Part shown: piece by piece, positions 42,880-50,026 of the stretch
Layout: each line of letters opens with the position of its first letter
Numbering within the stretch: position 1 is the stretch's first letter
Assembly (NCBI GenBank): GCA_006218045.1
Contig: VBWB01000021.1
Span: 1 to 64,000, forward strand
Direction of reading: 5' to 3'
Source: Stygiobacter sp.
GTDB taxonomy: Bacteria > Pseudomonadota > Alphaproteobacteria > Rhodospirillales > Magnetospirillaceae
Length of the DNA: 64,000 nucleotides
Notes under the pieces: generated by a model
Told to the model about the DNA's origin: nothing
The model's database searches: none
Seen by the model: only the letters and a program-made list of their open reading frames with translations
Position numbers and translations under genes: made by a program

Positions 42880-43992
42880 TCAACCCTTGTAGTAGGAATG
42901 GGGAACGAACGGCAGCAAGGCCACATGGGCCTCAAGCGCCTTGCCGCGGACAATCAGTTTCACCGGCATGCCGGGCACGGCGAAGCCACGGGGCACATAG
43001 CCCATGGCCACCGGACCATCGGCCGAGGGGCCGAAGCCGCCCGAGGTGATCTCGCCCAAAGGCGTGCCGTCCACGTCGGTGATCTGGGTATGGGCGCGGG
43101 CGGGGGCGCGGCCCACCGGTTTGATGCCGACGCGCAGGCGCGGCGCGCCCTCGGCCAATTGCTTGAGGATGATGTCAGCGCCGGGAAAGCCGCCCTGTTC
43201 GCGCCGACGCTTGCCGATGATCCAGGCGATGCGGCCTTCCACCGGCGTGGTGGTGGTGTCGATATCGGAACCATACAGGCACAGGCCCGCTTCCAGGCGC
43301 AAGGAATCGCGCGCCCCCAGGCCGATGGGCTCGACCTCGGGCTGGGCCAGCAAGGTGCGGGCCAGCTTTTCCGCGTCCGCATTGGCGACGGAAATTTCGT
43401 AGCCGTCCTCGCCGGTATAGCCCGAGCGGGTGACCAGGCAGGGGATGCCGTCAATGGGGTATTCACCGATGGACATGAAGCCCTGAGCCTCGGCACCGGG
43501 CGCCAGCCGGGCCATCACCGCCGCCGCCTGCGGCCCTTGCAGGGCCAACAGCGCCCGGTCGTCCAGCCGGGTCAGCTTGGCCTTGCCGGAAAGCGCCCGG
43601 GACAGATGGGCGAAATCAGCGTCCTTGCAGGCGGCGTTGACCACCAGGAACAGCTTGTTCTCGGCCAGTTTCGAGATCATCAGATCGTCGAGGATGCCGC
43701 CTTGGTCATTGGTGAACACCGAATAGCGGGTGCGGCCCAGGCCCAATCCCTGGATATCGCCGGGGACCAGACTCTCCAGCAATGCGGCCACGTGATCGCC
43801 TTCGATGGTGATCTGGCCCATATGCGAGACGTCGAACAGGCCGGCGCCCGCGCGGGTGTGCAGATGTTCGCCCAGCACCCCCAGGGGGTACTGCACCGGC
43901 ATGGCATAGCCGGCGAACGGCACCATCTTGGCGCCCAATTCACGGTGCAAGGCATCGAGCGGGGTGGTCAGCAGCGCGACATCGTCCGACAT
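42880..43992 (-). CDS. gcvT: Glycine cleavage system T protein (aminomethyltransferase)
   Basis: Transfers the methylene group from lipoyl-bound aminomethyl on GcvH to tetrahydrofolate, releasing ammonia. It is 370 residues. Visible are [25 protein letters not shown] (substrate region), [14 protein letters not shown] and [20 protein letters not shown]. The start ATG has AAGGAA about ten bases upstream. It is the first gene behind the tandem glycine riboswitch. Confidence 0.96.
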
Positions 43993-44040: not shown

Positions 44041-44222
44041 GCCCCCCTCTGTCTTGGAACCTGAAAGATTCACCCAGGAGCCTGGGCTTACATCGTCGGT
44101 GGAGCCGGTTTTCCCGGCCCGCTTTCCAGAGCTTCATCCCCCCACTGGTCCTTTGGCCTGAGAGTTTCCAGGGGCGGTTGCTCCTTCGGCGGCGGACCGG
44201 TATCCGGCCCGCTCTCTCCCAG
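44041..44222 (-). ncRNA. Tandem glycine riboswitch
   Basis: Minus-strand leader of gcvT with two glycine aptamers. Aptamer 1 (about 44221-44146) has GGGAGAGC, GAAGGAGCAACC and CTCTCAGGC. Aptamer 2 (about 44133-44042) has CACCGACG, CCTGGGTGAATC, CTTTCAGGT and AGACAGAGG. These conserved blocks and the spacing match the known class. In bacteria it switches gcv genes on when glycine is abundant. No clear terminator follows, so control may be at ribosome access. The gcvT ATG is 48 bases downstream. Confidence 0.93.
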
Positions 44223-44286
44223 CGGGGATCATCTGTGGGGGCAGCATGTCGCGGCCCCCCATTCGAGTCAACGATTAACGAACGGT

Positions 44287-46327: not shown

Positions 46328-46351
46328 TTTGCCCCCCGGACATGGTTTGAG

Positions 46352-46490
46352 ACCACATCCCGATGCGGATAACGCATCGGGATGTGGTTAGGCGCGACCG
46401 CGCCGCGCGGCTTATGCCGCGTGAGCCAAGCATCCCGGAGGGGTGCGCCCGGCGCATGAGGGCGCTGCTGATCGGAACCGATCAGCAGAA
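46352..46490 (+). ncRNA. Structured multi-hairpin element E, copy 1 (candidate RNA or MITE)
   Basis: About 139 bases that can form six hairpins in series: H1 (15 bp, CCACATCCCGATGCG arm), H2 (GGCGC/GCGCC), H3 (CGCGGC, loop TTAT), H4 (7 bp, loop GGA), H5 (GCCC/GGGC, 9-base loop ending TGA) and H6 (CTGCTGATCGG arm). Copy 2 at 48971-49118, on the other strand, has the same order with compensating stem changes. The element lies between the GNAT stop and the thrB start (about 20 bases away), in the thrB direction. Confidence 0.6.
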
Positions 46491-46509
46491 TCTAACAGAG
46501 GACAGGGGC

Positions 46510-47490
46510 ATGGCGGTCTATACCGAGGTTTCCGACGACGAGATGCGGGCCTTCATCGCCGGATACGATATCGGCGACGTGATCTCTTATACCGGCATCG
46601 CCGAGGGGGTGGAGAATTCCAACTTCCTGGTCCAGACCGAAACCGGCCCCTATATCCTGACCCTCTATGAAAAGCGGGTGAACCCGGTTGAACTGCCGTT
46701 CTTCGTCCAGTTGATGGAGCATCTGGCGGCGCGCGGCCTCGCCTGCCCCACGCCTTTGCATGGCCGCGACGGCGCCGTCTTGCGGCAATTGTGCGGACGC
46801 CCGGCGGCCATGGTCACCTTCTTGCGCGGCATGTCGGCCAAGCGCCTGAGCACCGGCCATTGCGCTGCCCTGGGCGAGGCCATGGCGCAGATGCATCTGA
46901 AGGGCGCCGATTTCGCCGGTACCCGGGCCAACAACCTGTCGGTGTCGGGCTGGCGCCCGCTGTTCGAGCAATGCCGCGGCGGCGCCGATCAGGTCAAGCC
47001 CGGGCTGCAAACCTTCATCGCCGAACGCCTGGACGAGCTGGAAAAATGCTGGCCCAAGACCTTGCCCTCGGGCCTGATCCACGCCGATCTGTTCCCCGAC
47101 AACGTGTTTTTCATGGCCGACAAGGAAACCCGCGAAGACCGGGTGTCGGGGCTGATCGACTTTTACTTCGCCTGCACCGATTTCCTTGCCTATGACGTGG
47201 CCATCTGCCTGAACGCCTGGTGCTTCGAGCCCGATTCGTCGTTCAACGCCACCAAGGCGCGGGCTTTGCTCAACGGCTATGGCAAGATCCGCCCGCTTTC
47301 CGCCGACGAATTGGACACCCTGCCCCTGCTGGCCCAGGGCGCGGCCATGCGCTTCTTGCTGACCCGGCTGTATGACTGGCTCAACACGCCGGAAGGCGCC
47401 CTGGTCAAACGCAAGGACCCGCTGGAATATTACCGCAAGCTGCGCTTCCACCAGGGCCTGAGCGGCCCCGGCGCCTACGGCATCGCATGA
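46510..47490 (+). CDS. thrB: Homoserine kinase (APH-fold ThrB)
   Basis: Phosphorylates homoserine for threonine synthesis. This is the aminoglycoside-phosphotransferase-fold type found in alphaproteobacteria, 326 residues. Motifs are [20 protein letters not shown] (nucleotide loop), the catalytic [14 protein letters not shown] with the HxDxxxxN pattern, and the metal-binding [16 protein letters not shown]. The ATG at 46510 (AGGACAGGGGC before it) is preferred; the longer frame reads through element E. rnhA overlaps the stop by 4 bases. Confidence 0.95.
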
Positions 47491-47930
47491 CGGAGCGCGT
47501 CGAAATCTTCACCGATGGGGCCTGCTCGGGCAATCCCGGCCCCGGCGGCTGGGGTGCCATTCTGCGCTATAAGGGCGTGGAAAAGGAATTGTGCGGCGGC
47601 GAGAATCCGACCACCAACAACCGCATGGAAATGATGGCGGCGATCATGGCCCTGGAAACCCTGAGCCGCCCCTGCCCGGTCACCCTTTACACCGACAGCC
47701 AATATGTCATGAAGGGCATGACCGAATGGCTGAGGGGCTGGAAGGCGCGCGGCTGGAAAACCGCCGACAGGAAGCCGGTCAAGAACGACGATCTGTGGCA
47801 GCGCCTGGACACCGCCTGCGCCCGGCATCAGATCACCTGGCAATGGGTCAAGGGCCATGCCGGCCACCCGGAAAACGAACGCGCCGACCAGTTGGCCCGC
47901 GACGGCATCAAGGTGGTGTTGGCGGGATAA
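47487..47930 (+). CDS. rnhA: Ribonuclease HI
   Basis: Degrades the RNA strand of RNA-DNA hybrids. It is 147 residues. The catalytic acidic residues appear in [18 protein letters not shown] (Asp), [13 protein letters not shown] (Glu) and [12 protein letters not shown] (Asp), with the C-terminal Asp in [15 protein letters not shown]. The ATG overlaps the thrB stop (ATGA). The order ispH-thrB-rnhA is common in alphaproteobacteria. It converges on the next gene with 6 bases between stops. Confidence 0.96.
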
Positions 47931-47936
47931 AGCGCG

Positions 47937-48500
47937 TCAGCCTTCCTCCTCGTCGTCCTCGAACAAACCGGTGGGATAGCCGTCGAAGCTGTTGGCGTTC
48001 TTTTCGCGCTGGTATTTCAAGATACCGTCATCGCCCTTGCGCTCGGCCCATTCGGGCAACATGGTGCGTTGGCCTTGCAGCTCCATCAACGGCACGCCGA
48101 AGCCGCAGGACGAGTTGACGCTGTCCACGTCGACAACCACGATCTGGCGCACCGCCGGATGAGGCTGGAACAGCCCGATCAACCCGGCCCATTCGTCGTC
48201 GCGCTGATGCACGGCGCGGCCCCGGCCATAGAGGCGCAAAATCTTCGGATTGCCGGTAAAGGCGCAGAACATGAGGGTGATGCGGTCGTCGCGCAGCAGA
48301 TGGGCGGCGGTTTCGTTGCCGCTGCCGGTCAGGTTGAGGAAGGCCACCCGGTTCGGCCCCAGCACGGTGAAACTGCCGTCCAACCCCTTGGGGCTGATAT
48401 TGATGCGGCCCTCATCCGGGGCGGTGGCGACGAAGAACAGCGGTTGGGCGGCGATGAACGCCCGCTGCTCGTCGTTGATGCCTTCATAGAACTTTGCCAT
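47937..48500 (-). CDS. Pyridoxamine 5'-phosphate oxidase-family protein
   Basis: A 187-residue split-barrel flavin-type protein. The start MAKFYEGINDEQRAFIAAQPLFFVATA and the strand block RINISPKGLDGSFTVLGPNRVAFLNLTGSGNETAAHLL are typical of general stress/PPOX-family proteins that bind FMN or F420. The longer frame (to 48563) overlaps the haemerythrin gene, and the ATG at 48500 fits the family. No substrate is predictable. It follows the haemerythrin gene by 7 bases and is probably co-transcribed with it. Confidence 0.85.
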   Translation of the reverse strand: MAKFYEGINDEQRAFIAAQPLFFVATAPDEGRINISPKGLDGSFTVLGPNRVAFLNLTGSGNETAAHLLRDDRITLMFCAFTGNPKILRLYGRGRAVHQRDDEWAGLIGLFQPHPAVRQIVVVDVDSVNSSCGFGVPLMELQGQRTMLPEWAERKGDDGILKYQREKNANSFDGYPTGLFEDDEEEG

Positions 48501-48507
48501 CTCTGCC

Positions 48508-48915
48508 TCACCAGCGTTCTGCCTGCGACTCACTGACATAGCGGCGATAGCGCATATCCTCAAGCGCCATGTGTTCGATCAGGGTGGTTATGGTGTTGCG
48601 CACCACCACCATCATTTCGGCCAGGGAATCGGCGGAGGCCAAGATTTCCGCCAAAGCCGTGACCGAGGCCATCAAGGCCCGGTGCTCGGCCTGATGGTGA
48701 TCGAGGTCAGGATAATGGATGCGGCCCAGCAGCAATTCCTCATCGCGGAAATGGCGGGACAGATTGATGATGAAGTCACGGTGAAAGCGCTGAACCACCG
48801 CACGCGGGGCGCCATCGGCCAGGGCCAGTACCACCGCGCCCGCTTCATCGAAGAAAGCGCGGTGCTGGGCGTCGATCAGCGGATCGCCCACCGTCAGGGA
48901 TTCCATCCATTGCAT
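48508..48915 (-). CDS. Bacteriohaemerythrin
   Basis: A 135-residue four-helix-bundle protein with a non-haem di-iron, oxygen-binding site. Iron ligands match the family pattern: His in DAQHRAFF, His/Glu in SRHFRDEELL, His pairs in DLDHHQAEHRAL, and His/Asp in LIEHMALEDMRY. Such proteins are abundant in microaerophilic and magnetotactic bacteria and store, deliver or sense oxygen. Element E copy 2 lies just upstream in the same direction, and the PPOX-family gene follows. Confidence 0.92.
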   Translation of the reverse strand: MQWMESLTVGDPLIDAQHRAFFDEAGAVVLALADGAPRAVVQRFHRDFIINLSRHFRDEELLLGRIHYPDLDHHQAEHRALMASVTALAEILASADSLAEMMVVVRNTITTLIEHMALEDMRYRRYVSESQAERW

Positions 48916-48970
48916 GGTCCCAGTGATGACGCAATCAGGCCGGCAGCACCGTGATGACGGTCAAGCGCTT

Positions 48971-49118
48971 ATACCATATCCCGCTGATCGTGACCGATCA
49001 GCGCTGCCCTCAAACGGCGGGCGGATTGCTCCGCAACCCTTGCCTCCCGCGACATAAGCCGCGCGGCCCCTTGGGCCTAGCCAAATCCCGATGAGGAATC
49101 CTCATCGGGATTTGGTAT
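48971..49118 (-). ncRNA. Structured multi-hairpin element E, copy 2 (candidate RNA or MITE)
   Basis: Read on the minus strand from 49118. It has H1 (16 bp, CCAAATCCCGATGAGG arm), H2 (GGCCC/GGGCC), H3 (CGCGGC with one G-T pair, loop TTAT), H4 (7 bp, loop GGA), H5 (GCCC/GGGC, 9-base loop ending TGA) and H6 (CGCTGATCG arm). GCGCGGCTTATG is identical to copy 1. The ends form a terminal inverted repeat (ATACCAAATCCCG and ATACCATATCCCG). It begins at the fmt stop codon and ends 56 bases before the haemerythrin ATG. Confidence 0.6.
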
Positions 49119-50026
49119 TAGCCCAGAACACTGCCCTTGGCGATGGCGAAGCCGCGCAGCAGATCGGCGGCCTCCATCGGCCCCTTGCCGGCCCGCTGCA
49201 CCCGCAGCAGCCGCAAGGCACCGCTGCCGCAGGCCACCGACAGGGAATCGTCCAGGACCGTGCCGGGTGCCCCCGCCCCTTCGGCCAGACAGGCGGCCAG
49301 AACCTTCAGCCGTTCCTCGCCCACCTGGCACCACACGCCCGGCCACGGGGTCAGGCCGCGGATCTGGCGCTCCAACTCCACCGCCGGACGACTCCAGTCC
49401 AACCGGCCTTCATCCTTGGCCAGCTTGTGGGCATAGGTCACGCCCTCGTCCGGCTGCGCCACCCGGGGCAGGTCATCATAGCGGGCCAGGGCCTCGACGA
49501 TCAGCCGCGCCCCCAAAGCGGCCAGGGCATCGTGCAAGGAAGCGGCGTTGGTGTCGCCGGCAATCGGCAGGCTTTCCACCAGCAGCATGGCGCCGGTATC
49601 CAGGCCGGCATCCATCTGCATGATGGTCACCCCGGTCCGGGCATCGCCGGCCAGGATGGCGCGCTGGATCGGCGCCGCCCCGCGCCAGCGCGGCAGGATC
49701 GAGGCATGCACGTTCAGGCAGCCCCGGCGCGGCGCGGCGAGAATGGCTGGCGGCAGGATCAGACCATAGGCGGCGACCACCGCCGCATCCAGGTCAAGGG
49801 CGCGGAAAGCCTGTTGCTCAGCCTCGGATTTCAGTGATTTCGGCGTCCGCACGTCGATGCCGCGCTGGGCGGCGAAGGCATGGACCGGGGTGGGCTGTTC
49901 CTTGTGGCCGCGCCCCGCCGGACGCGGCGGCTGTGAATAGACGCAGACCACCTCGTGGCCGGCATCCAACAGCGCGGACAGGATGGCGACCGAGAAATCC
50001 GGCGTACCCATGAAGGCCAGACGCAT
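49118..50026 (-). CDS. fmt: Methionyl-tRNA formyltransferase
   Basis: Formylates initiator Met-tRNA with 10-formyl-tetrahydrofolate. It is 302 residues. The N-terminal [20 protein letters not shown] and the catalytic block [21 protein letters not shown] (Asn, His) are visible. [15 protein letters not shown] and the C-terminal tRNA-binding domain are also present. It lies 2 bases after the def stop. Element E copy 2 starts at its stop codon. Confidence 0.96.

Follow-up and report, generated by a model that had tools for sequence, protein, structure and literature searches.

A probable non-autonomous transposon with a conserved folded core beside thrB and fmt in Stygiobacter sp.

The window analysed here (64,000 nucleotides of Stygiobacter sp. 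contig VBWB01000021.1) carries two inverted copies of a short element. Copy 1 is located between a GNAT acetyltransferase gene and thrB, while copy 2 is located between fmt and a gene encoding a hemerythrin-domain protein. A first-pass annotation of the sequence had described both copies as a series of six hairpins, and homology bounds place them where it had put them. The shared hairpin order and the likeness of the loops were found again, and the base changes on both sides of the stem that it had named for hairpins H1, H2 and H4 are present. The two copies are 76% identical in local alignment and have a G+C content of 62-65%. Their folding z-scores are -9.0 (copy 1) and -7.4 (copy 2), and for each copy 0 of 200 shuffled sequences fold as well. 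The features are listed below (R1 and R2 are models of the element and of its core, respectively).

46351-46497, plus strand: copy 1, whole element (R1 match 1-146, right end decayed)
46351-46389, plus strand: copy 1 H1, left terminal hairpin (fold)
46391-46404, plus strand: copy 1 H2 (fold)
46405-46422, plus strand: copy 1 H3, TTAT loop (fold)
46425-46427 with 46451-46453, plus strand: copy 1 long-range helix, GCC with GGC, H4 inside (covariation in own copies and 99 core copies)
46430-46446, plus strand: copy 1 H4, GGA loop (fold and covariation)
46447-46463, plus strand: copy 1 H5 or pseudoknot, GCCC with the GGGC of TGAGGG (fold)
46465-46488, plus strand: copy 1 H6, right terminal hairpin (fold and covariation)
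48972-49117, minus strand: copy 2, whole element of 146 bp with TACCA...TGGTA ends (R1 match 1-146)
49005-49080, minus strand: copy 2 core (H2, H3, H4 with the GCC:GGC-type helix, TGAGGG; R2 match)
49118-49120, minus strand: copy 2 left target duplication TAA, which is the fmt stop codon
48969-48971, minus strand: copy 2 right target duplication TAA (the site in congener G007 has TCA)

The two copies differ in preservation. Terminal inverted repeats had been reported for copy 2, which indeed retains an intact inverted end and 3-bp duplication; in copy 1 the right end is decayed and the target duplication is unreadable. Likewise, each copy had been said to begin at or just after a stop codon. 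This is exact for copy 2, which begins at the stop of fmt, but does not apply to copy 1, which begins 23 nt past the stop codon of the upstream GNAT gene.

The element is a member of a dispersed family. R1, which was built on 12 copies from the window's genome, identifies 17 copies at E <= 1e-20 in that genome (G000, 62 contigs), as well as weaker fragments. At E <= 1e-4, R1 matches are found in 37 of 61 genomes (its own included), so that additional copies of the kind that the first-pass annotation had proposed looking for do exist. Full-length matches come from several genera of the family, and two genomes from other families of the order (G037 and G039) also have them. The usual length is 145-148 bp, and the terminal inverted repeats (TACCA...TGGTA) are continued inward by longer, imperfect pairing. 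Traits of miniature non-autonomous DNA transposons (MITEs) are present: the element is short, non-coding and dispersed, with near-identical copies at unrelated sites, dozens of which are found in G020. Phage records contain no match to copy 2, and plasmid records contain none for copy 2, while four records match another copy. Variants with a longer H2 (the GCGCCTCTGCCGAAGGCGGACATTGTCCGCGGTGCGC type; L010, L016, L019 and L022) point to exchange of hairpin modules. At three G020 loci (L240, L241 and L249) element insertions adjoin one another, with GGTCTTATACC common at the joint.

Sites lacking the element are found in related genomes. Between fixed anchors, the window's copy 1 site spans 150 nt and that of G007 spans 1 nt; for copy 2 the corresponding lengths are 155 nt and 6 nt, the latter comparison being based on BLAST positions together with anchor distances. 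Both G007 sites lack the element and are 149 nt shorter, consistent with an element of 146 bp and a target duplication of 3 bp. Copy 1 is missing at the same place in G005, G008, G011 and G012 as well, and copy 2 is also missing in G005 according to BLAST positions. The spacing between the two sites is approximately the same in G007 (1,597 versus 1,600 nt). A composite transposon comprising the two inverted copies and four genes was considered and rejected, as G007 sequence matches the flanks of both sites with this spacing nearly unchanged and neither copy present.

Target duplications were counted in 140 loci, 29 of which were dropped because the core or ends were unclear, leaving 111 copies from 23 genomes. 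TNA is present on both sides of 91 of these copies, and the TNA flank is missing on one or both sides of the remaining 20. Identical duplications border 77 of the 91 TNA-flanked copies, compared to approximately 30 expected (fraction 0.325 by base composition; p = 1e-24), with boundaries chosen using a bonus for TNA and none for identity and some of them surely wrong. In a smaller set of loci, 44 of 54 duplications are identical. The element, with its TACCA...TGGTA ends, duplicates a 3-bp 5'-TNA-3' target.

Many of these insertions are located at stop codons. The left end of the element lies at the in-frame stop of an ORF on the same strand in 39 of the 111 copies, and in 20 the right end lies at the stop of an ORF on the opposite strand; with one copy counted at both ends, 58 of 111 are found at a stop codon. 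Among all TNA the background is 12% (left) and 13% (right), as obtained from fewer, comparable loci under less strict ORF criteria. The stop codons TAA and TGA fit TNA and the duplication regenerates them, so that insertions of this kind should do no harm. The location of half of the copies at stop codons accounts for the earlier remark that the element starts at one. Among copies at stops, 38 are in the sense of that gene and 19 are not (p = 0.016), although this bias is reversed in G004, G012 and G034 (small numbers).

The two copies in the window are thus very probably two independent insertions of a non-autonomous DNA transposon, an element with a conserved folded core that would be moved by an outside transposase. 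The first-pass annotation had suggested a structured RNA, a MITE or both. The MITE reading is held firmly, with empty sites, target duplications and the near-identical G020 copies at unrelated sites in its favour. Pairing is also conserved across genera, while at the RNA level a strand test (discussed below) is near neutral. The transposase would be made elsewhere and is perhaps of the IS5/IS1031 type, a guess made because that group also duplicates TNA. Searches for PF13340 and PF01797 in eight genomes each identified no transposase with these ends; the 14 PF13340 loci, from five of the eight genomes, all lack them.

In the fold of the element, the ends (H1 and H6) flank the core hairpins, and pairing is maintained although the bases themselves vary. 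An unfitted MAFFT alignment of the 12 own copies has 95.9% of its cells paired and double changes in 17 of 50 pairs; sliding the partners by 1-3 columns leaves 1-6 (covariation 0.246 versus 0.030-0.064 slid). Alignments fitted to a model, which are biased in its favour, give a covariation of 0.439 for 99 core copies (slid, at most 0.049) and 0.416 for 102 whole-element matches, two of them antisense (slid, at most 0.062). Covariation, which had been proposed as a check on the fold, is therefore far above the slid-column controls. The core is 77 nt in length and consists of H2 and H3 followed by GCC-AAG-[H4]-CGCCC-GGC-GNYTGAGGG. Its GCC:GGC helix encloses another hairpin between unequal spacers, and 99% of its cells pair. 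The middle pair of this helix is G:C in nine and C:G in three of the 12 own copies, C:G in 87 and G:C in nine of 96 distinct core copies, and differs between the two subfamilies of G020. The H5 hairpin (GCCC/GGGC) described previously competes, or forms a pseudoknot, with this helix, and its pairs show no double change among the 12 own copies. Palindrome correction during replication can give hairpin-ended elements double changes, and so covariation by itself is no proof of selection.

The core extends beyond the TNA-flanked element. A DNA pattern in which CAAG, CGCCCG and TGAGGG are fixed matches at least 119 stretches of named genomes. The genera among the matches listed include Paramagnetospirillum, Azospirillum, Nitrospirillum, Roseomonas, Qipengyuania and Sphingomonas, which presumably represent several alphaproteobacterial groups. 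R2, the core model, has matches in 28 of 289 genomes of the class and in 12 of 299 genomes of a phylum sample, all 12 from the same class or nearer (the out-of-class share of this sample is unstated); as no more than 16 candidates were scored in each genome, copy numbers per genome are lower bounds. Three of 80 named loci score below 19 bits with R2 (L129, L162 and L194) and are taken as chance pattern matches. In other alphaproteobacterial groups the core occurs with or without transposon ends, and many core copies lack TACCA/TGGTA. The first-pass annotation had regarded matches retaining only the inverted-repeat ends as evidence against its proposal; instead, many matches preserve the core better than the ends. 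Tandem core repeats with a spacing of 92-108 nt are found in some cases. Of 67 core matches in the named loci usable for gene context, 56 are intergenic and 11 are inside an ORF, as judged by a simple ORF caller for which errors are likely.

In a phage-like cluster, the core is found without TNA-type ends between close genes, in a 117-nt gap (L491 and L514) as opposed to 11-21 nt; the comparison contigs (L523, L529 and L536) are only approximately 71-80% identical. This cluster suggests that the core is gained and lost without TNA-type ends as well. It is conceivable, though improbable, that the core is the heritable unit of a class-wide mobile family, with or without TNA ends, in tandem and in phage-like clusters, having its own TGAGGG signal and a pseudoknot-like single-stranded DNA or RNA fold that the ribosome or a so far undescribed mobilising factor would read. 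A 47.9-kb contig filed as viral (IMGVR_UViG_2708742415_000004) contains many core copies (L473, L518, L522 and L533), several of which are in tandem at 108 nt. Similar cores in two genomes (L127 and L350) are located upstream of what, judged by eye, is apparently the same EVE-domain-type gene and are perhaps a retained insertion.

As for why the fold is kept, its single-stranded form (DNA in transposition or replication, or RNA in untranslated regions) may be recognised or may render insertions harmless. A functional RNA family (leader or 3'-UTR) dispersed by transposition, in which TGAGGG would be a Shine-Dalgarno sequence masked or freed by the CCC bulge, is unlikely but is the strongest of the alternatives. 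The strong covariation, the strand-specific conserved loops and the GCC:GGC helix are consistent with it. In addition, 12 of 75 core matches have an ATG located 3-14 nt after TGAGGG that begins an ORF of 60 aa or longer, compared to 8 of 163 other TGAGGG sequences in the same loci. This excess and the mostly sense orientation of copies at stops are mild signs of an effect on the transcript. Folded RNA accepts G-U pairs and not A-C pairs, yet the G-U to A-C counts are near neutral in several alignments: 14:5 for the own copies, 7:10 for the unfitted core, 26:24 for the fitted core and 91:61 for the whole element (p = 0.018, nominal only as the sequences are related). A small tRNA control set leans to G-U (14:2). 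The G-U excess is weak or absent, and it may be as single-stranded DNA that the fold is maintained. The high copy number, the tandem arrays and the many core matches (the majority) with no start codon following also argue against a functional RNA, as do the small bias in orientation with respect to adjacent genes at the named loci (35 of 56 for upstream genes, 29 of 56 for downstream genes) and the reversal of the sense bias in three genomes. A riboswitch as the main reading was rejected because the copies are numerous, some are in tandem arrays and their orientation bias is weak.

Slightly less probable than a functional RNA is a fold with no function of its own, in which slippage during replication would correct one inverted-repeat arm from the other. 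The near-neutral core counts of G-U and A-C are as expected for such a process, and the hairpins are local with stems that change freely. It is harder to reconcile with the GCC:GGC helix, which surrounds a hairpin and has unequal spacers, near-complete pairing and a middle pair that is C:G in most copies and G:C in others, and with the conservation of the unpaired CAAG and TGAGGG letters, though the pattern fetched loci by both. Dispersed G+C-rich palindromes are also what REP-type repeats mobilised by a RAYT (Y1) transposase would look like, and at L480 two inverted cores face each other downstream of a gene. Such a repeat is nevertheless very improbable: PF01797 is found in only two of the eight genomes searched and is absent from the window's own, and neither TNA duplications nor TACCA/TGGTA ends are known as RAYT traits. 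A MITE with a conserved folded core remains the preferred reading.

Comparison with known systems places the element nearest, by description, to the CIR repeats (CcrM-associated intergenic repeats, printed as CerM) of Caulobacter and Brucella, which according to PMC2229807 are approximately 110 bp with GANTC at or in a terminal loop and are of unsettled mobility. Both are short alphaproteobacterial repeats with a conserved two-armed fold; unlike CIR, the element is 145-148 bp and its mobility is shown here. In 54 of 100 element copies GANTC falls within the H1 part; it is found at two places over 99 core copies, and totals 68 in whole elements compared to 48 expected from shuffles. The MITEs ERIC/RU-1, Correia/NEMIS, RUP and BOX, according to PMC2229807 and PMC3049150, resemble the element in being less than 200 bp and intergenic, encoding no protein and having inverted ends, a target duplication and a transcript that folds, or in the element would fold, strongly. 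They are described there as A+T-rich, whereas the element is G+C-rich and its inner fold, which also occurs without ends, reaches well outside a single genus. The IS1031 group of the IS5 family likewise prefers 5'-TNA-3' and makes a 3-bp repeat (PMC12016507), but no matching transposase or IS ends were found among the PF13340 loci of the eight genomes searched. Full-text literature searches, covering few subscription papers, turned up no account of the element family.

No match to the element was found in the window with Rfam 15 at the gathering threshold, and 11 loci searched at E <= 1 gave two hits, neither of them within the element and both scoring well under the gathering cutoff. The same region of the window contains a glycine riboswitch aptamer (RF00504, 69 bits, 44136-44231, minus strand) upstream of an ORF that is gcvT-like by eye (42880-43992, minus strand). 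Although the element is also structured, it differs from this and other Rfam families in having no credible match. For small bacterial repeats, whether the folds act is often open; here a single fold can be traced across several alphaproteobacterial groups, both inside transposon ends and free of them, and tests could therefore separate selection on the fold from transposition and from effects on the host's genes. The element is also an apparently unnamed multi-copy feature beside housekeeping genes (fmt and thrB) in magnetospirilla and relatives.

A second inner module, GCTTACYGCCRACGCTGG..ACATACAAGG, takes the place of the core and in several cases is found beside the same right end. It is present in 4 of 13 genomes of the genus. 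The loci noted with it are the following.

L258, approximately 1416-1560: GCTTACYGCCRACGCTGG..ACATACAAGG module
L269, approximately 2000-2110: GCTTACYGCCRACGCTGG..ACATACAAGG module
L021, L026, L270 and L271, contig ends: GCTTACYGCCRACGCTGG..ACATACAAGG module

The contig ends L021 and L026, followed up as a possible autonomous partner, lead from the same right end into the module, and no transposase is seen there. At L272 the module also occurs without those ends.
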